From the IMG/VR virus record IMGVR_UViG_3300044824_000040, positions 1-46,814 of that record: a stretch of DNA of 46,814 nt; one strand, written 5' to 3'. The translations under genes were made by a program, and so were the position numbers. Of this stretch, positions 1 through 46,814 are shown one piece after another; position 1 is the first letter of the stretch, and each line of letters starts with the position of its first letter. This DNA is from a virus. A model generated the notes under the pieces. The model was not told the origin of the DNA, made no database searches, and worked only from the letters and a program-made list of their open reading frames with translations.

Positions 1-127
1 AGATAACGTATGAAATGTTGCTGCTCGTGTATATTAGCACCGCGATCTGCGAGCTCTGCAGTTGAGGCCGAGCCGAATATATTTTTGGCTGACAGGTTAA
101 TTTCCATCCACCCACGCTCGGGAAGAC
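1..127. repeat. Terminal overlap, copy 1 (circular closure)
   Basis: These 127 bases are identical to the last 127 bases (46688-46814). The minus-strand PrimPol-helicase gene reads in frame through the join, so the two copies are one genomic segment. An exact length of 127 is the usual signature of an assembler closing a circular graph with k-mer 127. It is therefore more likely an assembly overlap than a biological terminal repeat. Confidence 0.95.
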
Positions 128-1364
128 GTTGCTTGAGAATGAGGTTAAACTCGCCTCGCACTTCGCCAGTTTGTACACAATCAAGAAAGATGGGATACCG
201 ACTAACAACAATATCGACAGCACCCCCAGTAGTGCCTGTTTTTGTGATAAGCGCGCCATCGGCCCTCCAGTAAAAATCATGCGGCAGTTGCGGCAGTTCA
301 CCTAGCTGATCTTGTGCTTGTCCTTTGAGCGACGCGCCGAAGATGTCGGTTTGAACGCTACTTTCCAGCGCTTCTTGTTCTTGTGCCCGACCCAACGAGA
401 TCGGGCTTTTGATCTTTTGCCAATGCGGACATGCTTCGCAAGTTTTCGGGTTGAGCGAGTGGAAGTGTTCGCAGGTACTAGCTCCCGTAAGCGATCGAAC
501 TCTTTCCAGTCGACTTTGAGTTTCTTCTCGAGTGTATCCTGAATATCCACTGGACCACTCATGAGCGAACTGCTCTCCGTCATCGCACCAAGCGAGGACT
601 CCAAGGCCGGCATACCAAAGTGGTTCCGGCAGACATCCATGAGAACTACGCATTCCTCCAAGCTGTCCACACGCACTTGCAATAGGCTCACTAAAGCGCG
701 GCTCGTCTGTAGAAGTATTTGCAAGCGCGAGTGCAAGACGCGGAGCTGTTCTTCGTGGTTCTGATCCATGTTCCAGCAGCCTCTTGAATGCTTCGATCGG
801 GTACGGCCCAACGAGCGGGCCGCAGACGACTTCCTTGTTCAGTCCGTTCTTTCGGTTGTGAGTTCCTGGAGCGCGTAGTATCGACGCAACGTCAGCCGTA
901 CGAGAGGGATCGGCCTCCAAGCCTTCCCTTTGACAAAGCACCTTAAGCCCTCGCGCGTATGATGCCCACGTAGCAGGGTCAAGTGCATCGACCAGGGGCC
1001 AATGAAGATAGATGCCATTACCCGATCCCACGTAGACCGGATCGGGGAGTCCTGTTCGCTTGCAGAACTCACTGGCGGCGCGAGCGGCATCAAAAGCGTC
1101 GGCATAGGGCTTGTCCTCTCCCGCATCTACGTCGAGCCAGAATTGCTTAACGCATCGCGCATTAGTTCCAAAACGGCGAGACGAATCCTTATATACCGCG
1201 CAAGCGTAGTAGGTCGTTTGACCACTTCGCGATGCTGCAAGCAGCGCAGTAGCCAGCTCATCCGTGTTTGTAAACCACTGATGTCTTTTTGTTTCTTTGA
1301 CGAACGCGACATACCATCCCTCATCGGGCAAGACGTGTTTGAGAAAGTCCACCGTTGAGGGCAT
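1..1364 (-). CDS. PrimPol-helicase, N-terminal part (continues at 46687 across the circle)
   Basis: This is the N-terminal half of a 936-residue protein that starts at ATG 1364 and runs through base 1 into the segment ending at 45241. Read by hand in this frame there is no stop from 1394 down to 1. The archaeo-eukaryotic primase (AEP/PrimPol) core is visible: metal-binding FWLDVDAG (Asp78, Asp80), SGNGIYLHW (114-122, His121) and RAPGTHNRK (164-172). A Cys-rich segment follows (Cys298, Cys309, Cys312, His314), then KIKSPISLG, as in phage primase-helicases. It probably primes or copies DNA at the phage fork. ATG 1364 is preferred over ATG 1382 because an AGGT lies 5 bases upstream. The start overlaps the preceding gene by 44 bases. 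Shorter ORFs on this strand at 302-811, 839-1126 and 1127-1324 lie out of frame and are shadows. Confidence 0.9.
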   Translation of the reverse strand, partial: MPSTVDFLKHVLPDEGWYVAFVKETKRHQWFTNTDELATALLAASRSGQTTYYACAVYKDSSRRFGTNARCVKQFWLDVDAGEDKPYADAFDAARAASEFCKRTGLPDPVYVGSGNGIYLHWPLVDALDPATWASYARGLKVLCQREGLEADPSRTADVASILRAPGTHNRKNGLNKEVVCGPLVGPYPIEAFKRLLEHGSEPRRTAPRLALALANTSTDEPRFSEPIASACGQLGGMRSSHGCLPEPLWYAGLGVLAWCDDGEQFAHEWSSGYSGYTREETQSRLERVRSLTGASTCEHFHSLNPKTCEACPHWQKIKSPISLGRAQEQEALESSVQTDIFGASLKGQAQDQLGELPQLPHDFYWRADGALITKTGTTGGAVDIVVSRYPIFLDCVQTGEVRGEFNLILKQRLPERGWMEINLSAKNIFGSASTAELADRGANIHEQQHFIRY

Positions 1365-1623
1365 ATCGGACCTGCTGGACATGTTCGCGCCGGGCTATGG
1401 GCGACAGACGCACGGGGACGGGGAAGCCGCGGCGTTTTTTGATGGCATTCTCAAGCACCCCTAAGAGCCTCGTCGACTCCTCCCCGTGTGGTCCCCAGGG
1501 ATCATAACCCTGGAGCCACCCGCGCACCGTAGCGTACGGCCGATCGAACCAGACTGACAAGTCCGCCGTGGTCAAGCTGCCGTCGCGCTTGACACGCTCC
1601 AGACGCTTCTGAAAAGACTTCAT
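1321..1623 (-). CDS. Small HTH-like protein
   Basis: 100 residues. Residues 17-38 (SLTTADLSVWFDRPYATVRGWL) look like a helix-turn-helix of the MerR/excisionase type, with a basic C-terminal half. ATG 1623 has GAGGT at good spacing. It lies 6 bases after the 1630-2676 gene and overlaps the PrimPol start by 44 bases, so it is translated as part of the replication operon. It may be a DNA-binding regulator or replication accessory; the domain call comes from sequence pattern only. Confidence 0.7.
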   Translation of the reverse strand: MKSFQKRLERVKRDGSLTTADLSVWFDRPYATVRGWLQGYDPWGPHGEESTRLLGVLENAIKKRRGFPVPVRLSPIARREHVQQVRYALNGGLSQTRLAR

Positions 1624-3149: not shown

Positions 3150-3541
3150 GAACGCCTTATGTTCACACGGACGAATTGCGAAGTCTCGACACCTGGCGGG
3201 TCGATCTTGTTAGTCTCGACGTATTGCTTGACGGCATCCTTGGCGGCAGAGACGATGAGCATATCGCTACCGCCTTGGTTATAATAAGTCGAGACGTATT
3301 TCATGAAGGCGTCGCGGTCGATGACCTTGACATTCATAAGCGTTGACTTGTACGCGGTCCCGGCCTCGGTCTTGGTGTTGTCGGCGCCGCGCTCGTCCAG
3401 ACGGCGCAGAAACTCGTTCTCGATCGTCGCCATGCCGTCGACGTAGGGCTTAAGCTCGGCCTCAAACGCTTCCTTGCGTGAGGCGACGAGCCCTTTGAAC
3501 TCCAGATATTTCTCGACCAGTTGAGCGTCGGTGATGTTCAC
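3146..3541 (-). CDS. Hypothetical early protein downstream of SNF2 helicase
   Basis: 131 residues. The N-terminal 45 residues are charged and helical, followed by a conserved-looking block with LDERGADNTKTEAGTAYKS (47-65) and a basic C-terminus. I have a sense of similar proteins next to phage SNF2 helicases but cannot name a function. The start is GTG 3541, overlapping the helicase stop (GTGA), so it is translationally coupled to it and probably works in the same DNA transaction. Confidence 0.8.
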   Translation of the reverse strand: MNITDAQLVEKYLEFKGLVASRKEAFEAELKPYVDGMATIENEFLRRLDERGADNTKTEAGTAYKSTLMNVKVIDRDAFMKYVSTYYNQGGSDMLIVSAAKDAVKQYVETNKIDPPGVETSQFVRVNIRRS

Positions 3542-5130
3542 AGTTTCCCCTCCCTCACCATCTCTAGCAGCAGTCCCTGCAGTCCTTCGTTATTTTCTAA
3601 ACGTCGGTAGATCTCACGCTCTAAGGCAGTCGATACGAGTTGCACTATAGTAACGGGATGTTTTTGCCCTGGCCGATGTGCGCGTTTGTTGGCCTGTAGA
3701 TATAGCTCGGTCTTGTCTGTAGCTCCGTACCAGACAACCGTCTGAGCCATGAAAAGGTCGAGCCCATGTGCCATTGTGCCGGGATCAGCAATGAGAAGTC
3801 GCGGGTCGGGACTTTGCTGGAAAGCCGAAAATATCTCAGAGCGTTCTCGTTGGCTGACATTGCCGTTCACCACTGCGCAGGAAACCTTGTCTTTCAATTC
3901 CTTATATAACATGTTCACCACGCTTGTAAAGGGCACAAAGCACAAAATTTTTCCCGGTGCGTTTTCAATGACTTGCTTTAATTCTGCAATGCGCGGCGCT
4001 GCGTCTATGACGTGCGAATCGTGCGCCTCGTCATACACCGCCCCGAGACTGATTTGAATGAACTTCTGCCGCGCTGCGGCTTCGTTGACGGCAGTGATGG
4101 GATGCCCCGACTTGACCACGATCTGCAGGTCGCGTTTTAACTGCCCCATCGCGCGCTTCTGCTCGTCAGTCAGCGCGACCTCACGCTGCTGCGTGGTCAT
4201 CTCTGGCCCGTCCCACACGTCCTTGATGTCGAAGCGGATCGCAGGAGACAGCAACGCCCGTGCGGCTTCGTAAGAGCCCGCGCGCGGTATCCACTTGAAC
4301 TGCGACACGCGCATCATGGTGCGGTTGTGAAAGCTCGTGTACGACTCACCCTTAGCGTTGTTGGCGAGCTTGGCTAGGCCGTACGCATCTGTAGGTCCAT
4401 TCGGTGTCGGCGTCCCGGTAAGTTGCCACAGATAATCTCGACGGCCGAGAATTTCTCGCGCAATTCGATGGCGCTTTGTTCGGCTATCTCGGTAAGCAGA
4501 GCACTCGTCCACGATCGCGAGTCGAATGTCAGTGCGATCGTGAAGCTCCTTTGACAGCCCGGCGAGAAGGAACTTCCCACGGGTATGCGCGCCAATTCCC
4601 ACACCATCGAAATTGATAATGTAGAAGTCGGCGGGAACGGCCAAAGCGGCGGATCGCACTGCTGCGCTGCCATACACAAGTGCCGCAGTTCTTCGGCCAA
4701 GAAAGTTGGCAAATATTGCGTCTCCCCAAACTCTTTGTAGGATAGATAGCGGTGCGACGATAACCGCACGGCAGTTCTCCTTCTGCATGACGAAATCAGC
4801 GGCCCACAGCGTCGCCAGCGTTTTCATGGTGCCCATGTCGGAAAGATTAAAACAGCGCGGGTGTGCCACCATGAACTCGGCCATGAGCTTCTGGTGCGCA
4901 AGCGGTTTGCGCCCGCGCTCGATCGGCCAGTCGTAGCCCGACGCCTCCATAATGCCCGGCACCGGGTAGTCGAGGATGCGGAGTAACTGCGCGTTGTGGA
5001 GCGTAGCCGGCGCCGCGACGTAAGAGCCATTGAGGCGCTTCGCCTCGGGGATGTACTGCAGCACACGATCGGGCTCGCCGGTACGATAGACCAGAAGCCC
5101 GCGAGCCCGATCGTGGTAGAGTGCAATCAT
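3538..5130 (-). CDS. SNF2/SF2-family helicase
   Basis: 530 residues, the usual length of phage single-polypeptide SNF2 helicases. Motif I is DMGTMKT (98-104), a GxxxKT variant of the usual DMGxGKT. Motif II is IVDECS (Asp208, Glu209), motif III is LTGTPTPN, and lobe 2 ends with motif VI QANKRAHRPGQ. These ATPases translocate on duplex DNA; in phages they are thought to aid replication or recombination or to remodel DNA. ATG 5130 overlaps the stop of the 50-residue gene upstream (ATGA), and the 3' end overlaps the next gene. Confidence 0.93.
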   Translation of the reverse strand: MIALYHDRARGLLVYRTGEPDRVLQYIPEAKRLNGSYVAAPATLHNAQLLRILDYPVPGIMEASGYDWPIERGRKPLAHQKLMAEFMVAHPRCFNLSDMGTMKTLATLWAADFVMQKENCRAVIVAPLSILQRVWGDAIFANFLGRRTAALVYGSAAVRSAALAVPADFYIINFDGVGIGAHTRGKFLLAGLSKELHDRTDIRLAIVDECSAYRDSRTKRHRIAREILGRRDYLWQLTGTPTPNGPTDAYGLAKLANNAKGESYTSFHNRTMMRVSQFKWIPRAGSYEAARALLSPAIRFDIKDVWDGPEMTTQQREVALTDEQKRAMGQLKRDLQIVVKSGHPITAVNEAAARQKFIQISLGAVYDEAHDSHVIDAAPRIAELKQVIENAPGKILCFVPFTSVVNMLYKELKDKVSCAVVNGNVSQRERSEIFSAFQQSPDPRLLIADPGTMAHGLDLFMAQTVVWYGATDKTELYLQANKRAHRPGQKHPVTIVQLVSTALEREIYRRLENNEGLQGLLLEMVREGKL

Positions 5131-5876: not shown

Positions 5877-6103
5877 GCCTGCCCCGCTGCCTGCATAACC
5901 TGCAGTCCTTGAGCCGGCACGCCCTTGCACAGCATCATCGCTTTGATCTCGTCATGGACGATGTAGCCGAACTCGCCGAGCACAAAGCCCTCAAAGCGCG
6001 TCTGCATGACGAAATCCTGAAAGCGCGTGCCTGTCGCCAGCGGGAAGTCGAACCAGCGCACGGGCTCGCCTCTCAAAAACACGCGGACAAAGTTACTGTT
6101 CAT
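5873..6103 (-). CDS. Hypothetical early protein
   Basis: 76 residues from ATG 6103, chosen because AGGAGGGGGAG lies directly upstream and ATGA overlaps the nuclease stop. The sequence has beta-like aromatic strands (VRWFDFPL, FEGFVLGEFGYIV). No family recognised. Position between two nucleases suggests a DNA-processing accessory. Confidence 0.75.
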   Translation of the reverse strand: MNSNFVRVFLRGEPVRWFDFPLATGTRFQDFVMQTRFEGFVLGEFGYIVHDEIKAMMLCKGVPAQGLQVMQAAGQA

Positions 6104-6756
6104 CTCCCCCTCCTGTTGTGCGCGCAATCTAAAACCGGACACCACCCGCACAGCGGCCCCGGCGTCTTGTCGAACCGATTAGTCGCAATAGAGTGCTCGA
6201 TGTCGCCCATGATTGACTGCACCATCGCCCATGTCCTCGCCGTGTCGCTCAAGTCGTGCGGCTGGCCCTTCTGCCGCTCCTTGAGCCAGACGTAACAGCC
6301 CACGAGCTTCGTAATCTCAGGCCTATGCGCCTGGAGGAGCAGCGCGCCGATCTCCAGCTCGAACGGCTCCTCGCGCTTCTTCCCCGTTTTCCAATCCACG
6401 AGCACCGCGGCGTCGGTTGACAGCCGCACAGGCGCGTCGAGCACACCGCGCAGCCACACATCATCGTCCCAAAAACTCACTGGCCGGCCGCTCTTAGTCA
6501 TGCCTAGCTTCTGCTCGGGCTCGACGTGACAGGCGTCGAGCGGAGCGACCAGGGGCTCGAAGGCGAGCATGGCCTCGGGCAGTGGCGTCTTACTCCGTAC
6601 GCGCTTCTCCATCGCCCTGTGAACCTCGTTGCCGTAGCGCATCTCAGGCGTCTCGGGCTCTTTAGGCAAATCGCGGGCGATGTACATGCGGTAAGCCTGA
6701 TGCGGGCAGGTGGCCCACTTGTTGAACAGCGAAAATGAGGCGACTAAGCGTTTCAT
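6100..6756 (-). CDS. PD-(D/E)XK nuclease (Cas4/RecB-like)
   Basis: 218 residues, matching single-domain phage exonucleases of the PDDEXK_1 type. It opens with SFSLFNKWATCPHQAY, typical of RecB/Cas4 proteins, whose first Cys often binds an Fe-S cluster. Then GNEVHRAME (42-50), Asp107 in RGVLDAP and VLVDWKTGK (Asp121, Lys123) form the active site. The C-terminus CGWCPVLDC supplies three more cysteines, consistent with a 4Fe-4S cluster. The expected role is 5'-3' end resection for recombination or host DNA degradation. It overlaps both neighbours by ATGA. Confidence 0.92.
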   Translation of the reverse strand: MKRLVASFSLFNKWATCPHQAYRMYIARDLPKEPETPEMRYGNEVHRAMEKRVRSKTPLPEAMLAFEPLVAPLDACHVEPEQKLGMTKSGRPVSFWDDDVWLRGVLDAPVRLSTDAAVLVDWKTGKKREEPFELEIGALLLQAHRPEITKLVGCYVWLKERQKGQPHDLSDTARTWAMVQSIMGDIEHSIATNRFDKTPGPLCGWCPVLDCAHNRRGR

Positions 6757-7304: not shown

Positions 7305-7612
7305 ACTGCTTTCCCTTCTAAGCGCTTTTCACGGCGCTTGCTGGCCTTATGACCGTACTTGCCACGGTCGGCGTTGTGGAACTCCTTGGCAACCTTTGTC
7401 GGGATGCCTGCTTTCTTGGCGAACTGCGGATTGTGCGCCGCTGCAGCCATAAACTTTTTCTGCTTTGGACTCTTACTTGGCATTTTTAGAACTCCTTTTC
7501 CTGACATAGTATCGAATTTGTTTAGCACGCCCACACTGTCGGCATTGCCGCCAAAGCCTGAATTTGGTTCAGGAATTGAGCGCGCTTCAATTTTATTTAG
7601 AATATCGTTCAC
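7301..7612 (-). CDS. Phage protein with SPKQKKF motif; two in-frame starts
   Basis: 103 residues from GTG 7612, or 60 from ATG 7483. Residues 45-100 match a small protein common in phages (MPSKSPKQKKFMAAAA, then FAKKAGIP and KEFHNADRGKYG); its function is unknown. Both starts have good ribosome sites: AAGGAGG five bases before GTG 7612 and AAAAGGAG eight bases before ATG 7483. The gene may make two products. The longer start overlaps the polymerase stop by 20 bases. The conserved part lies wholly in the shorter form, so that may be the main product. Confidence 0.8.
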   Translation of the reverse strand: MNDILNKIEARSIPEPNSGFGGNADSVGVLNKFDTMSGKGVLKMPSKSPKQKKFMAAAAHNPQFAKKAGIPTKVAKEFHNADRGKYGHKASKRREKRLEGKAV

Positions 7613-9407
7613 CCAATCCTCCTTCACAATCAAGAGGTATCCCCGGCAACCATGCCGGCGTGCGCTTCATTTCGTTAGTGATGTACTCCAGAGCCTCGTC
7701 CTTGTGATCGTCATCCTTGACCAGAAAGCTCCACTCGTCATGAGATGACAACACAGGCTTGAAGCTCGTAGCGATGCGCGCACAAGCTTGCGACATGACC
7801 ATGCGCGCAAGCGCCTGCACGACGTTCTCCACGAGCTTCGCGCCGTACATCTTTGTCCACCCTTTGCGGAGTTTCAAGCGCCAGTGCGGGCTCTGGAGCT
7901 CCTCGCCCTCCTCCTGGTGATGCCACGAGAGCGTGTCATAGATGACCGGCGCCCCATTGGGCAGGTAGACGCGATGGTCCTTGATCTGCATCGGTCCCCA
8001 CTCGCGCTCCAGCCCGCCGTTGATCCAGCTTAAGATGTTACCGGCCTCGTGCCAGTATCGGACCACTTGTGGGTGCGTTCTTCGATATAGGTCAACTGCC
8101 CTTTGAGAATCTTCGTCTGAGAGATGCACAGGCGGGCCGTAAATGCCCAGTCGAGCAACGCCTTTGAACTTTGCTGATCCGCAGCCAAAGCCGCAGGAAA
8201 GTTCAGCTTGTTTGCCAGTGCCGCGTTCAGCAGAGTCAGCCTTTGTAATAGATCTCCCGTAGAACTCAGAAGCGATGCCCACGTAGGGATCGGCGCCTGC
8301 TCTAAATCGCTCGATGACATCTTCCTGCCCCGCTAAATAGTTGAGAATGCGACACTCGATCTGACTTAGGTCGACGGTGACGAGGAGGTAACCTTCGGGG
8401 GCCATAATGGCGCGTCTAATGTCGGACCCTCGCTTAAAGTTTTGAAAATTACTGCTATCTCCACCCGACCATCTGGTCGTGTGCGCTCCACAATAGCGTA
8501 GATAGACGGCGAGCGGGCCGCGAGACGCCATAAAGCCAAGAGTCTCCGCTCGCGTCTGTAAGAGAGTGCTTTTGATACCCAATCTTGCCTCAGCCAGTGC
8601 CCTAACGCGGTCATCGTCATCTTCCAATAACTCCCTCATGAACTCGTCAGTCTTGGCGAACGCTGGTATCAGCCCGTTTTTACCAGACTTATAAGCGATC
8701 TCAACACCCTCATTTGCCAGAAGTTGAGCAAATTTATCGCTAGACTGGAGATCAGCAGCACTAACACAAAGTCCGTCAAGTCGCTCCCGCTTACGCACAT
8801 TTTCCTCGCTCCAGATTTTGCCCAATAGCTCCACGTCGGCACGCAGCACAGGCTCGGTAAACATGCGTACGGTCAAGTCTACGATCTGGTACTCCTCGGC
8901 GGGGAAGGACGCGGCGAGCTTGCCAAAGATTGTCCAGATTGACTCAACCTCATCGCAGCAGCCTTCCGCGAGTTCCTCTTGCGTCGCCTGGTCTAGCTCT
9001 CGCCAGTGCTTGCCTTTGAATTTTTCGTATGGCGTGCGCTTGTTCGGAAGATTAAAGGTAGTACGCACATTATCGAGAGATACAGACAGATGATTGCCAA
9101 GCAGTAGCCTAGCCATAGATAAGGTGCAGAGCCATAGTCGCGGTGAAACACCGAAATGGTGAGACAATATAAACCCATCGAATTGAACATGATGGCAAAT
9201 GATAGCCGTCTCAGACCAGTCCTCGTCTGCGAGCACTTGCTTGAGCTGTCTCGCGTCGTACCATCTGGCGGCATGATCCGGTCCCCACTTGATCGCTGCA
9301 CCGAGCGCCTCGAAGCGCGAATCTCTGACGTAAGCCTCAGTAGACAATTTTTTGAGGCTGTAAACGTCAGAGAACTCGGTTTCAAAGTCGAGCGCAACGA
9401 TCCGCAT
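7593..9407 (-). CDS. Family A DNA polymerase with 3'-5' exonuclease
   Basis: 604 residues from ATG 9407 (AAAGGGA upstream); the in-frame extension to 9578 looks non-coding. Exonuclease motifs: Exo I ALDFETEF (Asp7, Glu9), Exo II HHVQFD (Asp77), Exo III region around CCDEVESIW. Polymerase motifs: A VDLSQIECR (Asp346), B RGTGKQAELSCGFGCG (Lys399), C SSHDEWS (His556-Asp557-Glu558). This is the usual layout of phage replicative PolA enzymes. It presumably extends primers made by the PrimPol encoded later in the operon. No 5'-3' exonuclease domain is present. Confidence 0.96.
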   Translation of the reverse strand: MRIVALDFETEFSDVYSLKKLSTEAYVRDSRFEALGAAIKWGPDHAARWYDARQLKQVLADEDWSETAIICHHVQFDGFILSHHFGVSPRLWLCTLSMARLLLGNHLSVSLDNVRTTFNLPNKRTPYEKFKGKHWRELDQATQEELAEGCCDEVESIWTIFGKLAASFPAEEYQIVDLTVRMFTEPVLRADVELLGKIWSEENVRKRERLDGLCVSAADLQSSDKFAQLLANEGVEIAYKSGKNGLIPAFAKTDEFMRELLEDDDDRVRALAEARLGIKSTLLQTRAETLGFMASRGPLAVYLRYCGAHTTRWSGGDSSNFQNFKRGSDIRRAIMAPEGYLLVTVDLSQIECRILNYLAGQEDVIERFRAGADPYVGIASEFYGRSITKADSAERGTGKQAELSCGFGCGSAKFKGVARLGIYGPPVHLSDEDSQRAVDLYRRTHPQVVRYWHEAGNILSWINGGLEREWGPMQIKDHRVYLPNGAPVIYDTLSWHHQEEGEELQSPHWRLKLRKGWTKMYGAKLVENVVQALARMVMSQACARIATSFKPVLSSHDEWSFLVKDDDHKDEALEYITNEMKRTPAWLPGIPLDCEGGLGERYSK

Positions 9408-9450
9408 GGCAGTCCCTTTAACGAGCATTATGCACTTAACGAGACCGCTG

Positions 9451-9693
9451 TCAAATCCACTCCCACCTATCCACATTCTCAATATTATACTGCATGAGCA
9501 CGCGCACGGCCAGGCACGCGAGCTTGTAACGGCGCCAGGCGTGCGCCGCGTGCGGCTGGCGCTTGGAATTAAGGCCACGTTCCATCAAGAAAATTGCTTC
9601 GCGTGAGTAGCCTGTAAGGTCGGCCAGCTGGTCCATAGTCAAGCCTAGGCGGTTGCGCCAGGCTTTTGCTTTAGCGTGTTCGGAATCAGACAT
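9451..9693 (-). CDS. XRE-like HTH regulator
   Basis: 80 residues with a helix-turn-helix at about 14-37 (LGLTMDQLADLTGYSREAIF) of the Cro/XRE type, followed by a helical tail. GGAGAGAG precedes ATG 9693. It is the best local candidate to bind the dyads in the 11.1-11.65 kb control region, or to autoregulate, but it sits inside the operon rather than next to those sites. A 51-base hairpin lies just upstream of the gene. Confidence 0.8.
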   Translation of the reverse strand: MSDSEHAKAKAWRNRLGLTMDQLADLTGYSREAIFLMERGLNSKRQPHAAHAWRRYKLACLAVRVLMQYNIENVDRWEWI

Positions 9694-10239: not shown

Positions 10240-10268
10240 AGATTAGTATAGGGTACTAAGGAAGTCAA
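10240..10268 (-). promoter_or_regulatory. Promoter-like site with TTAGTACCCTAT motif
   Basis: On the minus strand TTGACT (10268-10263), a 17-base spacer, then TAATCT (10245-10240). The spacer contains TTAGTACCCTATAC, the motif repeated in the divergent region at 11406, 11455 and 11579. It would drive the operon from the 9868-10212 gene onward, bypassing the two HNH genes. The -35 overlaps the end of the HNH gene. Confidence 0.5.
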
Positions 10269-10762
10269 GGCTTTCGCAAAAATAATTTTTCGAATTGCGG
10301 CAAAGGCTCAATAGCGCGATAGTCGTCTGTGCGCCGTAGATATGACGCAAGCCCCTCGAGGCGCTTTATTTCGTCGTACACTAGCCCGAGTGCCTGGTTG
10401 CAATTTCGGCATAGCATCCCGCGAATGCGTCCAGTCTTGTGGCAATGGTCGATAGCGCGCTCGCGCCCAAGCAGGTCAATAGGTGAGCGACAACCAGGAT
10501 TAGCGCACTTACCGCCTTGCGCGCGGTGCATCGCTTCAAGCTGTTCGAACGTAATTCCGTATTTTTCCTGAAACATTTTCCAATAGCGATCTAAAGTCGG
10601 CTTGCTTTTCGGCTTACGCTCCTTCCACTGCCACTGGCGGCGATTTTCAAGCGCAGTCACTAGCGCCACGCTGCGCTTGTACGACTCTTTGAAATATAGC
10701 TCTGGCAGCGGCGCTTCACGCAATAGCTTCTGCCCGAGCTCGACCAACGCAATCTTAATCAC
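10265..10762 (-). CDS. HNH endonuclease (endonuclease VII-like)
   Basis: 165 residues. The C-terminal domain has the treble-clef of the phage endonuclease VII/HNH family: CANPGC, RAIDHCHKTGRIRGMLC and RNCNQALG. The N-terminal half is basic and probably binds DNA (QWQWKERKPKSKP). Start GTG 10762 overlaps the stop of the next HNH gene (GTGA). The two neighbours are paralogues, probably a tandem duplication. They could be homing-type nickases or junction resolvases. Confidence 0.88.
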   Translation of the reverse strand: MIKIALVELGQKLLREAPLPELYFKESYKRSVALVTALENRRQWQWKERKPKSKPTLDRYWKMFQEKYGITFEQLEAMHRAQGGKCANPGCRSPIDLLGRERAIDHCHKTGRIRGMLCRNCNQALGLVYDEIKRLEGLASYLRRTDDYRAIEPLPQFEKLFLRKP

Positions 10763-11100
10763 AGTGGTTTCTCCAAATACGTGAGGAGGCCAGTGAGACG
10801 CTTAGGTTCACTATGTACTAAGGCAAGTGCTTGGCTACAGTTCCTGCACAGCATACCACGAACATTGCCGGCGTTGTCGTGATCCACCGCGCGAGTGCGG
10901 CCAGTGAGGGCGATAGGCACGCGACACGCTATATTAGCACATTTGCCGTCTTGCGCTCTGTGCAGACTGGTAATCTGGAGCATGGTCAGACCAGCTTTGC
11001 CGTATGTTGGCCAAATTTTGCGCTTGGCTTTTGACGGCTTAGGAGTGCGAGCGCGGCGTTTGACCTGCTCGGACCAGTCCTTTCGAGTGAAGTCAACCAC
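10759..11100 (-). CDS. HNH endonuclease (endonuclease VII-like), first early gene
   Basis: 113 residues, a shorter paralogue of the next gene: CANIAC, RAVDHDNAGNVRGMLC and RNCSQALALV. In place of DHCH the metal-site segment reads DHDN, so activity is uncertain. GTG 11100 has TAGGAGGG 7 bases before it. It is the promoter-proximal gene of the early operon. The shared block with the downstream HNH supports duplication followed by divergence. Confidence 0.86.
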   Translation of the reverse strand: MVDFTRKDWSEQVKRRARTPKPSKAKRKIWPTYGKAGLTMLQITSLHRAQDGKCANIACRVPIALTGRTRAVDHDNAGNVRGMLCRNCSQALALVHSEPKRLTGLLTYLEKPL

Positions 11101-11146
11101 TTTTAAGCCCTCCTAGGTGGCGAGCATCAACGGAGTACACTAACGC

Positions 11147-11175
11147 CTCCTAGCAGAAAAAACGTTACGCTGCAA
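11147..11175 (-). promoter_or_regulatory. Candidate early promoter
   Basis: Minus strand TTGCAG (11175-11170), 17-base spacer ending TGC, then TAGGAG (11152-11147). The same TTG-N-17-TGCTA(G) layout recurs at 12848 and 36240 on the plus strand and resembles alphaproteobacterial sigma-70 promoters with a GCTA -10. Transcription would start near 11140, about 40 bases before the first early gene. Confidence 0.45.
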
Positions 11176-11197
11176 GGGCTAAGGAGAACTAACAAAG

Positions 11198-11214
11198 TGT
11201 AATACTGTGTTACG
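11198..11214. promoter_or_regulatory. Operator-like dyad, site 1
   Basis: TGTAATACTGTGTTACG is an imperfect 17-bp dyad of TGTAAYAC half sites. It matches the reverse complement of the site at 11307-11323 at 15 of 17 positions. It lies just upstream of the candidate early promoter, suiting control of leftward transcription. Confidence 0.65.
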
Positions 11215-11270
11215 GAGGGCAAAGTGTTTGGATGTGGAGGAGTGAGGTGTGCTACGCGGTGCGGAATCAG

Positions 11271-11279
11271 GTATTACAC
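11271..11279. promoter_or_regulatory. Operator-like half site
   Basis: GTATTACAC repeats one arm of the flanking dyads (GTATTACA) and lies between them, 57 bases after site 1 and 28 before site 3. Confidence 0.4.
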
Positions 11280-11306
11280 ATCGCTCTTTCTAGACGACCC
11301 CCATTG

Positions 11307-11323
11307 TGTAACACTGTATTACA
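11307..11323. promoter_or_regulatory. Operator-like dyad, site 3
   Basis: TGTAACACTGTATTACA has arms TGTAAcAC and GTaTTACA around a central T. It sits directly before the AT-rich TATAAT stretch, so a bound protein would overlap a -35 element for plus-strand transcription. Confidence 0.65.
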
Positions 11324-11405
11324 TTAGTTAGTAGTATAATATAATATATAACAACCCTTATAAAACGCCTATTTCCTGGACATCCGCGCTAACCCATTTA
11401 GCGAG

Positions 11406-11594
11406 TGGTACCCTATGGATATTCGCTTAGAGCGCTGGTTTACCGCTCGCCACCCTAGCACCCTATACACAATATGTCACACGATACTACCGAACTCGGG
11501 ATCGGACCAGGGATCGCGGCGGAAAAATAAATTTTAGTGCCCTGGCAATTTTACCGCGTCCCATTTTTCAAATCAACATTAGTACCCTATCATA
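11406..11594 (+). repeat. Repeated TAGTACCCTAT motif array
   Basis: Copies TGGTACCCTATGG (11406), CTAGCACCCTATAC (11455), a weak TTTAGTGCCCTGG (11533) and TTAGTACCCTATCATA (11579). A fifth, TTAGTACCCTATACTA, is on the minus strand at 10259-10244. Each good copy is in non-coding DNA near a promoter-like site, so a binding site for a phage or host regulator is likely. Confidence 0.5.
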
Positions 11595-11595
11595 C

Positions 11596-12570: not shown

Positions 12571-12782
12571 CGCCGCGCCGCCATCGCCGCCGTCGCCGTA
12601 AGGGCTACCCCCTCAAGCTCGCTCTCTGGTCTCGCCTGCACTGGCGGCAGTGGGAGGCGCTGACGCCCGCCGAGCGGCTGGCCTACGAGGTCTACGTGGA
12701 GGACACCGACAACGAGAAGGTCGCTGCGCGCGCTCGCGCTGTTGCGCGCTCGAGACGCACGCCGAGCAAGCGTCGCTCATAA
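12567..12782 (+). CDS. Small Arg-rich protein
   Basis: 71 residues, extremely basic at both ends (RRHRRRRRKG, RSRRTPSKRRS) with a middle helix WEALTPAERLAYEVYVEDT. Probably binds nucleic acid or an acidic partner. ATGA overlap with gcrA indicates a joint transcript. Followed at once by a strong stem-loop. Confidence 0.65.
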   Translation: MTPRRHRRRRRKGYPLKLALWSRLHWRQWEALTPAERLAYEVYVEDTDNEKVAARARAVARSRRTPSKRRS

Positions 12783-18236: not shown

Positions 18237-21049
18237 AGCGCGCTGTTATTTCGATTGTATCTCTGATCTCAATGACGTTCTGCTGCTTGACGGCGCAAAG
18301 AAGTGCCATTGTGGCAGCTTCATTGTTTGTATTTTCACTGTTCGCATCGGCAGATGGTTTCGCTCAATCCAATGCGACATCTTCCTTGGGTACGAATGTA
18401 GCGGGCGTAGCTTACTGGACCTCTGAGCAGCCATTTCTCAACATCTTCAAGACTGCCGGCGGCTGGTCAACGATAACTTTGGGCAGCAACAGTGATACTA
18501 ACGAGGAAGTTGCGCTATATCAGCATTTCCTCGACTCAAACGGTTATCCAACGACTTTGACCCCCGGCGGATCATATCAATTCAACGCCCTTTCCGTGCT
18601 AGTCTTGCGCCTTAGCTCGCCCTATTATAGCTCGCCCTATTATCTTGCGGGCGACTATCTGTTGCAATGGAATGGGAGCGCAAATTTTTCCTATGGTTTT
18701 GACCCTGGGAGTGGTATGTGCACCTCTAGTCCATGCAAGATCACCGTTACCTCGCCCTCGGGTCAGGGTATTTTCCTTAAAATGCAGTGCACGGGCACGG
18801 GTTGTCCTGGGGGCTCTGCGTACGCGACAAATATCAGCCTAATATATTGCGGTACTTATAACAGTTCCGCTCCCGCCGGCCAGCAATGCAGCGCCACAAA
18901 TTCTGCCGGCGTTACTTACGATACGCTCCTTTCTCAGTGCAATTCGGGAACACTTACGAGTTGCTTTAACCCGGCCTTTCTCAATCTTATCCAACCCTTT
19001 AAGACGCTGAGGTTTATCGATTGGATGAATACTGCGGGAAATTTCCAGACCAATTGGACTGACCGGCCGCAAGTGGGATGGGTATTCTGGGACGACAGTC
19101 GCACAAACGCAACGATTAATGGCGCCGATCCGCGTAGTTTTAGTGATGGTGTCCCAGCTGAGGTCATGTTTGCGCTGTGCAACGTCCTTAACGCGGACTG
19201 CTGGTTCAACATGCCGCCGCTGGCGACCGACGATTACGTCACTCAATTTGCTACATTGGCTCACTCGATGTTAAACAGCAACTTGAAGGTCTACGTCGAA
19301 TACGCCAACGAGCTCTGGAACTCAGTATTTGCACAGCAGCAGCCGGGAAATACCGGTGCACCGCTGGATTTGGCGTCGGTGTGGACGCAACTCGAGACAT
19401 TAGGAGAAAATACTTACCCTGGTCTTGCCGGCAACCCCTGGGGCGCAGCATTCCAGTATGGCATCATGCGTATGGTCCAGGTCGGACACGACTGGAAAAG
19501 TGCATGGGGATCGGATGCGGCACGCGTCATTCGTCTCGCAGGTGGGCAAAACGGTTATACGTATCGTAACCAGTGGATACTGACGAGCTTACCAAACGGG
19601 TCGAGCGTTGGGGGGGGCTCTCAAGGCGGCCCGACATATTGGTATGGCACGACGGGCGGTACGGTGGGCCAGAACGTAGATGCCTTCGCGGTTGCTCCGT
19701 ATTTCGGCTACGGCGTGCCGGATGCTTGGACTGGCTTTGCCGATAAAGGGCTGACGGCACTTTTCACCGAGATCAATAGCGGTGGCCTAATTGCAGATAC
19801 AGTGGGATGCACGACAGGCGGAACGATAGCGGCATCGACTTGCAGCGGGGTGATCTCATCTCCAGCGAATGGGGCGACGATTGCATTTACATTACCTGAC
19901 AACAACAACACGACCATTTTATCTGGCAGCTATAATTCGGGCACGGGAGTGGTCAGTCTAGCTCTTTATAGCCCTATTCCAGGGTTGGCTCCTGGGACTA
20001 TCATGCAGGTAAGTAGTGCGAGCGGAACAGGTAGCTTTTCAAGCATAAACGGTACTTGGACAGCCGGTTCTGGGACAAGCAGCAGCACGTTAAATTTCAC
20101 AATAGCCACGGGTTTGACGCTAACTATTAGTAATGCAAATGTTAAGACAACCATTTCATCTGGTAGCTATAATTCTGGCACAGGAGTAGTAAGTCTAACT
20201 CTTTCGCCGTCTACTCCAGGGTTGGTTTCTGGGACTGTCGTGTCAGTAAGTAATGCGACAGGAACAGGTAGCTTTTCAAGCATAAACGGTACTTGGACAG
20301 CCGGTTCCGGAACAAACAGCAGCACGTTAAATTTCACAATAGCCACGGGTTTGACGCTAACTATTAGTAGTGCAAATTTTGAATTTAGCACGGCTCCTGG
20401 CGTTACGCTCGGCCCTTCTGGCGGCACAGCTTACCCGATACAGGTCAACGACGGCGCTTGCGCGGGAACGTCAATCCCCAGCGGCACGCTGGGGCCCGGA
20501 GGCACCTACACCGCGGCATTTACTTCGGCGGTTGACACAGGAAGCTGTAGCGGCGGCGGTAGCATTACTCCTGGCTGGCGCATGTTCCAGTACGGTGTGC
20601 AGGACTACACGACGGGCAGTGTCGATACCGGCATGATCGCCCAAACTCTCAACTGGGCTACTGTAAATCTCGCTACCGCCCAGTCATATGGGCTTCCATT
20701 GGTGGCCTATGAGGGTGGCCAGACCTTTCAGTCTGGCTCAGATACGGTGTTGCAGACGCTTTTTGCAGCAGTGAATGTGGATGCTCGCATGGGAACGTCT
20801 TACACTAGCTACTTAAATGCCTGGAAAGCTCTCGGCGGCACGATGCTCAATCACTACACTGATATCGCCTCGTATAGTCAATATAGTTATTGGGGCGCGC
20901 TGCAAAGTGTGCTCCAAACAAGTTCACCAAAGTACGACGCACTGGTAGGATTCATTGCGAGCAATCCCTGTTGGTGGAATGACTTGAATGGCTGCACTGC
21001 GAGCAGTCCGCCCGGCGGCTCCTGGGCTGGCTTCATGGCGCATCACTGA
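18230..21049 (+). CDS. Secreted TIM-barrel glycoside hydrolase with tandem insert
   Basis: 939 residues from ATG 18230 (7-base overlap with the previous gene). Long signal sequence to about residue 46 (ASADGFA). A clan-A-like hydrolase pattern follows: TLRFIDWMN, then LKVYVEYANELWNS with acid/base candidate Glu361, and LVAYEGGQ with nucleophile candidate Glu828. Between them, residues 561-718 are two near-identical 79-residue beta repeats. Cys-rich N-terminal region (TSSPC, CTGTGCPGG, CGTYN). It probably degrades capsule or exopolysaccharide. Confidence 0.75.
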   Translation: MLKRAVISIVSLISMTFCCLTAQRSAIVAASLFVFSLFASADGFAQSNATSSLGTNVAGVAYWTSEQPFLNIFKTAGGWSTITLGSNSDTNEEVALYQHFLDSNGYPTTLTPGGSYQFNALSVLVLRLSSPYYSSPYYLAGDYLLQWNGSANFSYGFDPGSGMCTSSPCKITVTSPSGQGIFLKMQCTGTGCPGGSAYATNISLIYCGTYNSSAPAGQQCSATNSAGVTYDTLLSQCNSGTLTSCFNPAFLNLIQPFKTLRFIDWMNTAGNFQTNWTDRPQVGWVFWDDSRTNATINGADPRSFSDGVPAEVMFALCNVLNADCWFNMPPLATDDYVTQFATLAHSMLNSNLKVYVEYANELWNSVFAQQQPGNTGAPLDLASVWTQLETLGENTYPGLAGNPWGAAFQYGIMRMVQVGHDWKSAWGSDAARVIRLAGGQNGYTYRNQWILTSLPNGSSVGGGSQGGPTYWYGTTGGTVGQNVDAFAVAPYFGYGVPDAWTGFADKGLTALFTEINSGGLIADTVGCTTGGTIAASTCSGVISSPANGATIAFTLPDNNNTTILSGSYNSGTGVVSLALYSPIPGLAPGTIMQVSSASGTGSFSSINGTWTAGSGTSSSTLNFTIATGLTLTISNANVKTTISSGSYNSGTGVVSLTLSPSTPGLVSGTVVSVSNATGTGSFSSINGTWTAGSGTNSSTLNFTIATGLTLTISSANFEFSTAPGVTLGPSGGTAYPIQVNDGACAGTSIPSGTLGPGGTYTAAFTSAVDTGSCSGGGSITPGWRMFQYGVQDYTTGSVDTGMIAQTLNWATVNLATAQSYGLPLVAYEGGQTFQSGSDTVLQTLFAAVNVDARMGTSYTSYLNAWKALGGTMLNHYTDIASYSQYSYWGALQSVLQTSSPKYDALVGFIASNPCWWNDLNGCTASSPPGGSWAGFMAHH
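19910..20383 (+). repeat. Two tandem 237-bp direct repeats inside hydrolase gene
   Basis: Units 19910-20146 and 20147-20383 are each 237 bp, in frame, 79 residues. They are nearly identical over long blocks, for example GGAACAGGTAGCTTTTCAAG and the following 100 bases. Both encode SGSYNSGTGVVSL ... GTGSFSSINGTWTAGSGT. Synonymous differences are few, so the duplication is recent or is being homogenised. Confidence 0.95.
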
Positions 21050-38283: not shown

Positions 38284-39420
38284 ATGCCGCAGCCGTGGGA
38301 TTTAGCCGGGGCATTTGAGAGCGGTGCCAAAGGCGCACAGCAGATCAGCGCAGGTCAGATAGACGCCGCAGCGCAAGCCGCCGCCGGCAACGCGCTGATG
38401 ACGATGTTTAATGCGCCGATGCCCGGCGCGCAGCCGATGCCTGGACAACCGCCCCCCGGTCAACCGGGAATGGGCGGGATGCCGCAGCCGGGGCAACCTC
38501 CGCAGCCGGGAATGGGCGGTCAGCCTGGCGGGGGGCAGGGCAACATCATCGCCCAAATCCTGCAGCGGCTACAGAGCACGGCTGCACCCCCTCAAGGCGG
38601 CCAGATGCCTCCCCAGGCGCCTCCGCAGATGGGGCCTCCTTCGGCCGCCCCGATGCCCGGCGCGCAGCCCATGCCGCCCGCTATGGCGCCGCAAGGCCCT
38701 CCACAGGGAGGCATGGCCCCGCAACCGGGGGGTCAGCCCGGTATGCAGCCACAGGGCGGGGCACCACAGCCGGGAATGCCGCCTGGCGGCGGTCAGCCGC
38801 AGCTCGACTGGAAGACGGTCGTGCAGAGCGTGGTCAAGTCTAACCCCGGCATTAAAGACCCCCGCGTCATCGCCGCCGCGGTCGACCGCTTCCTGCCGAT
38901 CATGAACCAGCAGGCACAGCAGCAATGGCGGCAGATCGGGCTCCAGCTTCGCGCCGAGCAGGTCGGCCAAGGGCAGCAGCGCCTTGAGCAAGGCGAAGAG
39001 CGCATTGACGTGTCGAAGCAGCGTGAGACCCGATTAGAGGGTGCGCAGCAGTGGCGGCAGGACCATCAATTTCAAGAACTTGAAGTAAAGAAGCAGAACC
39101 TTCAGCGACAGATCCTACAGGGCAACCAGCGTAATTTGATCGGTCAATGGCGTTCGATCGTAGAAGCGCAGCACAAGCGAGCGCAGGAGATCATTTCATC
39201 CGCCGCTGCCGGCGGCACGCCGATGGACCCCAAGGAGCGCAAGAAGTTGATCGACGAGGAGCAGACATTCTACGAGAGCCAGATCAAAGACATGCGCAAG
39301 ATGATGGAGGGCGGTGGCGAGAAAGGATCTTTCGGCGATCGCTTCTCGGGAGAACAATCTTCTAAGCCCGCGCCGCAAGGCGACTCGCACACCTACGTGC
39401 CGGGACAGGGATGGCAATAA
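38284..39420 (+). CDS. Pro/Gly/Gln-rich internal virion protein
   Basis: 378 residues. Residues 40-175 are a collagen-like low-complexity segment with PGQPPPGQPGMGGMP and MPGAQPMP units. Residues 180-330 are a globular/coiled coil with many Gln/Arg/Glu (RIDVSKQRETRLEGAQQWRQ). Likely a second ejection protein. The next gene's ATG follows its TAA directly. Confidence 0.75.
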   Translation: MPQPWDLAGAFESGAKGAQQISAGQIDAAAQAAAGNALMTMFNAPMPGAQPMPGQPPPGQPGMGGMPQPGQPPQPGMGGQPGGGQGNIIAQILQRLQSTAAPPQGGQMPPQAPPQMGPPSAAPMPGAQPMPPAMAPQGPPQGGMAPQPGGQPGMQPQGGAPQPGMPPGGGQPQLDWKTVVQSVVKSNPGIKDPRVIAAAVDRFLPIMNQQAQQQWRQIGLQLRAEQVGQGQQRLEQGEERIDVSKQRETRLEGAQQWRQDHQFQELEVKKQNLQRQILQGNQRNLIGQWRSIVEAQHKRAQEIISSAAAGGTPMDPKERKKLIDEEQTFYESQIKDMRKMMEGGGEKGSFGDRFSGEQSSKPAPQGDSHTYVPGQGWQ

Positions 39421-45240: not shown

Positions 45241-46814
45241 TCAAAGTGAAACTCTCTGCTGCATCGGCACGACATTCTCGGCTTTCGGCAGAACAGTACC
45301 GGAGATCGCCTCGTGCGCCGTGTTGATCTCTACGCACCACACCTGCCCTCCGGGGATGTCGGTGCCGGCTCCTAGCGTCGCCTGCATGCGCTTTCGCGTC
45401 ACGATGCCCTGCGCCTCCAGTGCCCGCAGCATCTCCTGGTAGCCAAGCTCGCGCTTGACCAGCCACTCGCGCAGTGCCGTCGACGCAATCAGGCAACGGC
45501 TGTTGTTGACCTCAAAGCGCATCGAGAGCCGATGCCCGCGGAACTCCTGCAGCGGGCGCTGCTTGTGACCGGGGACGTAGGCGGTAGTCATAATCAGCGC
45601 GTCGTGGATATTGTCGTTTAAGAACTCAGCCAGTGCGGGCATGGCCCACTCGCGGACGTGCTGTGTATCACGCGCCCCCATCGCCTCAAAGAGCCAAGCC
45701 ATGATGCGCTCGACGGAGAACTCGACAAGCCCAAGCTGCTTGACGATCACGCCGGCAACGGCAATGGCTGCAAGCGTACGAACCCAAAAGCGGTGTTCTG
45801 ACCTGAATCCCGTCCGGTCCCAGGTCTGCTGCGTGACCTGCTGCAGTGTCGCTTTCGTCCAAGCGAGATTGCCCGGCTGCACTAGCCATTCGAGGAACGC
45901 CTTTCCTGCATGACCTGAGTTGTTGCGCAACCCCTTGCGCAGCCGGTCGCCCTGCTCGTAGCCCTTGGGGATATCAAGTGAGAACTCCATGATGCGGTAG
46001 GCTGGCGCCTCGGGGTTGTTTTGCACCGACAGCGCGTCGACAAGCGAGGAGTTGGCGGCCGAGATCAGAATGGTCTGCCACGTCGAGGCCGTATGGTGGA
46101 TGGCGCCAGCGCGGGTCGCGCGCATCTTGTCGCGACCGTTGGTGAAGTTGACGACGAACTGGCGGATGGCCTCGGGGTCGCGCAGCGTTATTTCGTCGTA
46201 GACGACGGGGAGGTTGCCGAGCGCGCCGAGCGTGAGCGCTTTTGAGACTTTCGTGTCTTCGTTGGTGAGCCCGAGCCCTTCTCGTCGTCCCCATACGGAA
46301 GCCGCACCAATAAGCGCCGTAGATTTTCCTGTGCCAGACTCACGGGTGACAAGATGGATAATCGCTCCTCCCTCGTCACGCTCTTGGAATCGCATAAGAG
46401 GCGCTGCAAAACTTGCGAGTAGCGCGACAGACTGAGGCTCACATCCTGCAGCAAATAGCGCGTTGACAGCCTGTTTCCATCCTTCAAGATCGCCTCCCTT
46501 GCATGGTCCTACCCAATCTTCCTTGCAGCGCACCTGCAGCTCGTCGTTGCCCATGACGCGCGTCACACCAGCGGGGCCATAGAGATCGAGCCCGTAGAGA
46601 AAGGCCGTGTCGTTATCCTTCCAGCCGAACTGGTCGTAGCGCATGGTCAGTTTGTTGGCTCCGTAGAATAGGTCGATGGCGCCTCGCAGATAACGTATGA
46701 AATGTTGCTGCTCGTGTATATTAGCACCGCGATCTGCGAGCTCTGCAGTTGAGGCCGAGCCGAATATATTTTTGGCTGACAGGTTAATTTCCATCCACCC
46801 ACGCTCGGGAAGAC
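45241..46814 (-). CDS. PrimPol-helicase, C-terminal part (SF3/DUF927-like ATPase)
   Basis: Residues 413-936 of the PrimPol-helicase; the N-terminal part is at 1-1364. This half is a DUF927-like hexameric helicase ATPase. Walker A is RESGTGKST (Lys577), Walker B is VVYDEIT (Asp619-Glu620), and sensor Asn lies in SAANSS. The arginine-finger region is near YRIMEF and a winged-helix-like C-terminus follows. A primase fused to a helicase can unwind and prime the phage origin without host DnaB/DnaG, which fits with the phage polymerase in the same operon. The Met at 46794 is internal, not the start. It is followed after 9 bases by the small gene at 44998-45231. Confidence 0.92.
   Translation of the reverse strand, partial: LPERGWMEINLSAKNIFGSASTAELADRGANIHEQQHFIRYLRGAIDLFYGANKLTMRYDQFGWKDNDTAFLYGLDLYGPAGVTRVMGNDELQVRCKEDWVGPCKGGDLEGWKQAVNALFAAGCEPQSVALLASFAAPLMRFQERDEGGAIIHLVTRESGTGKSTALIGAASVWGRREGLGLTNEDTKVSKALTLGALGNLPVVYDEITLRDPEAIRQFVVNFTNGRDKMRATRAGAIHHTASTWQTILISAANSSLVDALSVQNNPEAPAYRIMEFSLDIPKGYEQGDRLRKGLRNNSGHAGKAFLEWLVQPGNLAWTKATLQQVTQQTWDRTGFRSEHRFWVRTLAAIAVAGVIVKQLGLVEFSVERIMAWLFEAMGARDTQHVREWAMPALAEFLNDNIHDALIMTTAYVPGHKQRPLQEFRGHRLSMRFEVNNSRCLIASTALREWLVKRELGYQEMLRALEAQGIVTRKRMQATLGAGTDIPGGQVWCVEINTAHEAISGTVLPKAENVVPMQQRVSL
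46688..46814. repeat. Terminal overlap, copy 2 (circular closure)
   Basis: Exact second copy of bases 1-127. Removing it gives a 46687-bp circle, which could be a circularly permuted headful-packaged genome or one whose true ends were lost in assembly. Confidence 0.95.

Follow-up and report, generated by a model that had tools for sequence, protein, structure and literature searches.

A primase-helicase gene read through the ends of a phage genome, with tyrosine at the motif II histidine site of its primase domain

The two ends of a 46,814-base virus record each hold part of a minus-strand gene. This raises the question of whether a single protein is encoded across them and, if so, whether its AEP (PrimPol) domain, which has tyrosine where the motif II histidine is expected, may serve to prime replication. 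The window analyzed here comprises the full 46,814 bases of IMG/VR virus record IMGVR_UViG_3300044824_000040, and residue numbers refer to its joined frame of 942 codons.

A gene across the ends of the record

Positions 1-127 of the window are identical to positions 46688-46814, forming an exact direct repeat of 127 bp, the longest within the window. The left copy (1..127, unstranded; circular overlap) and the right copy (46688..46814, unstranded) may reflect either a circular genome cut open by the assembler or a direct terminal repeat. Elsewhere, within late genes of the plus strand, exact direct repeats lie at 20092-20390 (spacing 237 bases) and at 38416-38670 (spacing 234 bases); tRNA genes were not found in the window by ARAGORN. 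When one copy of the terminal repeat is counted, a minus-strand frame runs from 1382 to 1 and then from 46687 to 45241, giving 943 codons, of which the last is the sole stop. In the linear record the gene appears as an N-terminal part of 460 codons (3..1382, minus strand) and a C-terminal part of 523 codons including the overlap (45241..46812, minus strand). The product measures 942 residues from the ATG at 1382 and 936 from that at 1364; the latter is the better guess, since it coincides with the start of relatives.

Assemblers run with k = 127 leave exact overlaps of 127 bp, and the exact overlap at this join would suit an assembly artefact, whereby two separate proteins are made. This explanation is nevertheless hardly credible and is refuted in practice by relatives with contiguous ORFs of 931-993 residues through the same point. 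The join is no assembly accident, because phage relatives hold the same protein there as a single ORF. One such relative, L008, a contig of 46,695 bp, has 63% identity over residues 10-939 within one ORF. In every domain, its mismatches with the window are concentrated on the third base of codons, and in the 80 residues around the join they number 25, 18 and 54 at the first, second and third codon positions. The first-pass annotation had read one protein through the linear ends, a claim that stands on the uninterrupted joined frame and on the coverage of both halves by L008 and by the PHROGs family phrog_25314; an inner stop codon, named there as a refutation, was sought in the joined frame and none was found. 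It had also dismissed the small ORFs at 302-811, 839-1126 and 1127-1324 as shadows; as ORFs they do exist and are open, but they lie in other frames of the conserved primase-helicase gene. The gene hidden across the ends is therefore real, and its kind is already known.

The family itself is widespread. One pattern scan of IMG/VR yielded 468 stretches, 460 of them encoding a relative of the primase-helicase, of which the best 80 were retained. The phrog_25314 family (1010 positions), annotated as of unknown function, matches both halves of the window protein in order as well as all 28 relatives scanned. Among 50,697 phage records, 5 match the N-terminal half and 17 the C-terminal half. Pseudomonas phage Rollin (WNV50619.1) and Rhizobium phage RHph_TM3_14A (QIG67541.1) carry both halves in one gene, and these genes are labelled hypothetical and "putative integrase". 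All three share the architecture of the window protein. A scan of bacterial genome contigs matched five stretches, none of which was confirmed as a relative. The public label of the family is poor: a protein present in hundreds of environmental phage contigs, and called unknown, hypothetical or integrase, is in fact an initiator helicase with a primase attached.

Primase, cysteine and helicase portions of the protein

The AEP (PrimPol) catalytic domain (residues 8-205; 768..1361, minus strand) was delimited by an AlphaFold2 model together with Foldseek and VIA-align. The mean pLDDT of the model is about 90-98 per ten-residue block up to residue 200, and its best Foldseek matches are all AEP enzymes, namely S-2L PrimPol, RepB', CAPP and an archaeal primase. 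The model aligns to structures 6zp9, 3h20 and 7p9j by Foldseek/VIA-align, and residues 6-206 align with S-2L PrimPol, RepB', CAPP, PriS and LigD. In VIA-align the S-2L PrimPol structure (6zp9) gives a Z of 18.1 and an rmsd of 2.6 with 171 residues aligned, the absence of a PDB family from these rows excluding no family. Among Pfam families, only DUF927 is matched in the window protein; LigD_Prim-Pol is under its cut-off in the relative shown, with E values up to 0.01 in 15 of 30 relatives.

The metal ligands of motif I, D84-V-D86 (1125..1133, minus strand), and Asp164 of motif III (891..893, minus strand) are kept in 74 of 74 relatives. Motif IV, R170-APGTH-N176 (855..875, minus strand), was placed by the alignment of relatives, in which R170 is retained in 74/74 and N176 in 72/74, and its two end residues are spaced six apart, as are R231 and N237 of PolpTN2. 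The protein thus displays the features of the AEP superfamily, namely the modelled fold and the acidic ligands D84, D86 and D164, as well as the PrimPol-PV1 supergroup feature of a motif IV arginine downstream of motif III. The dN/dS of the domain between the window and L008 is about 0.28, and no sign of relaxed selection was seen on the window AEP, dS being near saturation and some values not computable. The purifying selection resembles that in pairs of HxY relatives, this designation giving the residues at sites 125 and 127 of motif II.

A helical module follows (393..695, minus strand), with invariant C238, C304, C315 and C318. These four cysteines are present in 74/74 relatives and do not vary in 142 further-sampled rows, and AlphaFold2 models residues 230-330 as helical, with a pLDDT of 72-91. 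The window has no Pfam match to PriCT, and an alignment with 3h20 that extends to residue 309 reaches an rmsd of 21. The module is PriCT-like by position and cysteines only, and in outline it might correspond to PriCT and the Fe-S part of PriL.

The C-terminal half contains a DUF927 ATPase core (46096..46764, minus strand; Pfam E 9e-23, 81.8 bits against a cut-off of 22.6), and Pfam detects DUF927 in 30/30 relatives. Walker A (G581-K582, the codon of Lys582 lying at 46324-46326, minus strand) and Walker B (D625-E626) are invariant in five aligned rows. The helicase assignment is further supported by matches to 8tch (SaPIBov1 Rep; E 6.9e-33) and 5dgk (SCCmec Cch; E 5e-24). The fold over the full length comes from the model of L008, the window standing by homology: residues 372-940 of this 952-residue model align to Cch (5dgk) with a Z of 30.0 and an rmsd of 8.4 over 486 residues, and to SaPIBov1 Rep with a Z of 28.7, followed by MCM helicases at a Z of 10-12. 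The NCBIfam model SCCmet_Cch1 was matched by 26 of 28 relatives, far under its cut-off where shown. As reported in eLife 2020 (PMC7581432), Cch contains DUF927 and is a relative of SaPIBov1 Rep; SaPI Rep, for its part, is an initiator that loads itself and uses its C-terminal domain to bind iterons. SCCmec Cch and SaPIBov1 Rep share both fold and sequence with the C-terminal half of the window protein, yet neither has an AEP domain.

This arrangement had been proposed from the letters of the DNA, and each part was upheld: the AEP fold within residues 1-200 by the model, Foldseek and VIA-align, the Cys-rich segment after the primase by the conservation of its four cysteines, and the DUF927 helicase by the Pfam search. 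A structure prediction lacking the AEP fold in residues 1-200 had been named as a further refutation, and the model, which has that fold, does not bear it out. Of the AEP motifs proposed with it, DVD (84-86) and RAPGTHN (170-176) were retained, whereas SGNGIYLH (120-127) lacks the canonical motif II histidine.

Tyrosine for histidine in motif II

The motif II of the window protein, SGNGIYLHW (residues 120-128; 999..1025, minus strand), has Tyr125 at the canonical histidine site and His127 at the tyrosine site. Compared with the canonical SGxGxHxYW, the SGxG is retained while the nucleotide-binding histidine site is occupied by tyrosine; in an ungapped alignment the corresponding segments are SGRGLHIYW in L008, GGKSIHHYW in S-2L and KGLHLY in LigD. 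The AEP motifs are thus not all canonical, since the motif II histidine is displaced. Residue 125 among 74 unique relatives is His in 72 and Gln in one, the window itself having Tyr, and residue 122 is Asn in the window but usually Arg. With Asn122 and Tyr125 the protein falls outside the c+xsxH motif B group of human PrimPol and PriS, which is marked by a positive residue and an invariant histidine.

The nature of this residue varies by family, and the histidine is therefore not defining for AEP. In the part of Kazlauskas et al. 2018 at hand (PMC5862659), the motif II nucleotide-binding residue is given as His in most AEP families and as Gln or Tyr throughout others, and PolpTN2, with Gln at this site, is reported as active in vitro. 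In S-2L PrimPol, as described in the accessible text, the triphosphate is held by K115, H118 and R157. On the other hand, the H169Y mutant of human PrimPol is reported to be completely inactive, and H169A inactive, in the available text of PMC10778844.

The notion that YxH is unique to the window was rejected, as a wider pattern gave 101 stretches, of which 68 are AEP relatives. A first pattern, which allowed a single second base at residue 126 and required CC following TGG, had returned seven stretches and no AEP relative (0/7); likewise, none of 11 YxH stretches with an AGY serine codon was an AEP relative. YxY stretches included 21 AEP relatives out of 75, counting three fragments of 41-47 residues and the poorly aligning L497, and HxH stretches at least 80 among the 120 retained, counting three fragments of 28 residues. 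In the HxY control scan, which retained at least 120 stretches, 120 of 120 were AEP relatives. A coupled swap of His and Tyr as a strict rule was also discarded, AEP relatives with HxH and with YxY being found. HxH is common and is likely a stepping stone. In the literature searched, no description of YxH in AEP proteins was met.

Among 36 distinct YxH rows of at least 800 residues, in which Tyr and His occupy both sites in every row by construction of the search, D84 and D86 are present in all 35 rows having a letter there. R170, K178 and the four cysteines are kept in 36/36, and D164 in 34/36, with Asn in the remaining two. Trees of the AEP and Cys module and of the helicase, built from 66 of 143 rows as quick trees without bootstrap and with motif columns 117-130 excluded from the former, group the window with HxY relatives (97*; 99* with L008). 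The alternative that the window AEP was taken from the YxH clade was rejected, a grouping with 28 YxH rows giving a p-AU of 2.3e-5. Tyr125 of the window, which branches among HxY relatives, therefore has a history apart from the YxH clade, having been either gained or retained independently of it. Parsimony counts two changes at motif II in the sampled rows, of unspecified direction, and more are likely because the rows in the trees include neither HxH nor YxY.

These variants may be explained in two ways. The AEP of the window, and of the YxH and YxY relatives, could be non-catalytic, a template- or primer-binding module, while host DnaG or another factor primes. The inactivity of the human H169Y and H169A mutants is in line with such a loss, as are Asn122 in place of the usual Arg and the Asn for Asp164 in 2/36 YxH rows, yet we regard it as rather unlikely in view of the retention of the metal ligands, R170 and K178 in YxH rows, the purifying selection like that of HxY pairs, and the natural Gln and Tyr families, among which PolpTN2, of the Gln type, is active in vitro. 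Alternatively, these proteins may constitute widespread phage primases with a rewired incoming-nucleotide site, in which Tyr replaces the motif II His as YxH or YxY; this replacement would have occurred on at least two occasions, and the window would represent a separate instance. Together with a helicase of the Cch/SaPI-Rep type, such a primase would make up a self-contained enzyme for origin opening and priming, a proposal for which we consider the chances to be even. Natural HxY, HxH, YxH and YxY relatives provide ready-made mutants bearing on the role of the motif II histidine in AEP enzymes.

The replication module, a possible mechanism and known systems

The gene belongs to a minus-strand module that also encodes endonuclease VII-like proteins, a family A DNA polymerase (PolA; 7593..9578, minus strand) with a weak 3'-5' exonuclease match, a PD-(D/E)XK nuclease (6100..6756, minus strand) and an SNF2-type helicase (3538..5130, minus strand). 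Two neighbouring minus-strand genes, at 10265-10762 and 10759-11100, both match endonuclease VII families; they probably reflect either duplication in tandem or the splitting of one gene. A possible HTH gene lies just upstream of the primase-helicase. Also upstream is a 348-residue gene (1630-2676) that matches unknown phage families only; in L002 and L003, too, the primase is preceded by a gene at this location. A defence or repair role in place of replication, as proposed for ICETh2 Ppol in the available text of PMC7693054, is very improbable for a gene that, in different lineages, is situated in the phage replication module beside PolA, a helicase and nucleases.

PolA was found in 23/24 records of the first set and 23/25 of the YxH set, or 46/49 together, and records without it may be fragments. 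Its presence is a family trait, as 46 of the 49 records with the family carry it; the first-pass annotation was right to note a PolA in the same module, which is common to the whole family. In four records (G029, G033, G036 and G045, behind L132, L138, L143 and L169) the PolA frames measure 978-1132 residues and a long insert splits the Pfam match; inteins or other inserts are possible. Since NrS-1, an AEP-helicase fusion, is described as working as a replicase, and S-2L PrimPol is said to be the sole polymerase, the protein might be the main replicative polymerase, with PolA as an accessory. This is improbable given a full-length PolA in 46/49 family records.

Toprim_2 had no match in any of 20 records, the window included, and Zn_ribbon_DnaG none over its cut-off in 20 records including the window, with one under it (E 7e-4). 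The AEP domain is consequently the sole recognized primase, host DnaG being the alternative.

A candidate origin was sought in the same genome. A divergent intergenic gap (11101..11595, unstranded) contains GTRTTACA repeats together with the 60-bp segment that is richest in AT in the whole window. All four GTRTTACA copies in the window, and five of the six of GTRTTAC, fall at 11198-11323, adjoining this AT-rich segment, and the minimum of cumulative GC skew is at 12641. The gap also has five promoter-like sites against 0.8 expected, and fits an origin and, equally, operators of divergent promoters. Three relatives (L095-L097) likewise show an AT-rich gap, 445-670 bp long, where gene blocks diverge; GTRTTACA is absent there and other repeats occur, three of the k-mer sets being simple runs (C, AT, AG). 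Downstream of the primase-helicase gene, where Cch/SaPI origins lie, no convincing origin repeats were seen.

We hold with moderate confidence that the protein is a phage replication initiator with its own primase, which combines an AEP, a four-Cys PriCT-like module and a complete MCM-like AAA+ helicase of the Cch/SaPIBov1-Rep type and passes primers to PolA. By analogy, the C-terminal part would bind origin repeats, for which the 11.1-11.6 kb gap is a candidate, whereupon a hexamer would load and unwind 3'-to-5'. The AEP and Cys module would lay short primers on the exposed strand, to be extended by PolA. The AEP is inferred still to do chemistry despite Tyr125, because relatives bearing Tyr retain the metal ligands, Lys178 and the arginine of motif IV, and because the searches recovered no primase of the DnaG type. 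Counting against an own primase are the inactive H169Y of human PrimPol and host DnaG, which could prime.

Several known systems resemble this protein in part (further literature drawn on, as far as its text was available: PMC8211822, PMC10345425, PMC8065100, PMC8718748, PMC12205980). AEP-DUF927 fusions are in print as the PrimQH and all3500 families, in the portion of PMC5862659 referred to above, so that fusions of this sort have precedents. These families, like the window protein, belong to mobile elements and have a PriCT or a Zn-binding module as the link between an AEP and a DUF927 ATPase, with a motif IV Arg and a variable motif II, a likeness in features. There DUF927 is a domain name, whereas in the window the match spans a whole Cch-type protein, and YxH is not among the features described in that portion. 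The nearest solved AEP domain is that of cyanophage S-2L PrimPol (6zp9), likewise an AEP-PriCT-helicase, which differs from the window protein in keeping K115 and H118, in its VirE-like helicase and in being the reported sole polymerase. The NrS-1 phage polymerase is likewise a single chain with a PrimPol, a helix bundle and a ring helicase, yet its helicase is different, and a sole replicase of its type stands without another replicative polymerase, whereas the window additionally has PolA at 7593-9578. The Rollin and RHph_TM3_14A proteins are HxY at motif II, unlike the YxH of the window, and it is this displaced motif II histidine that constitutes the point of interest in the window protein.
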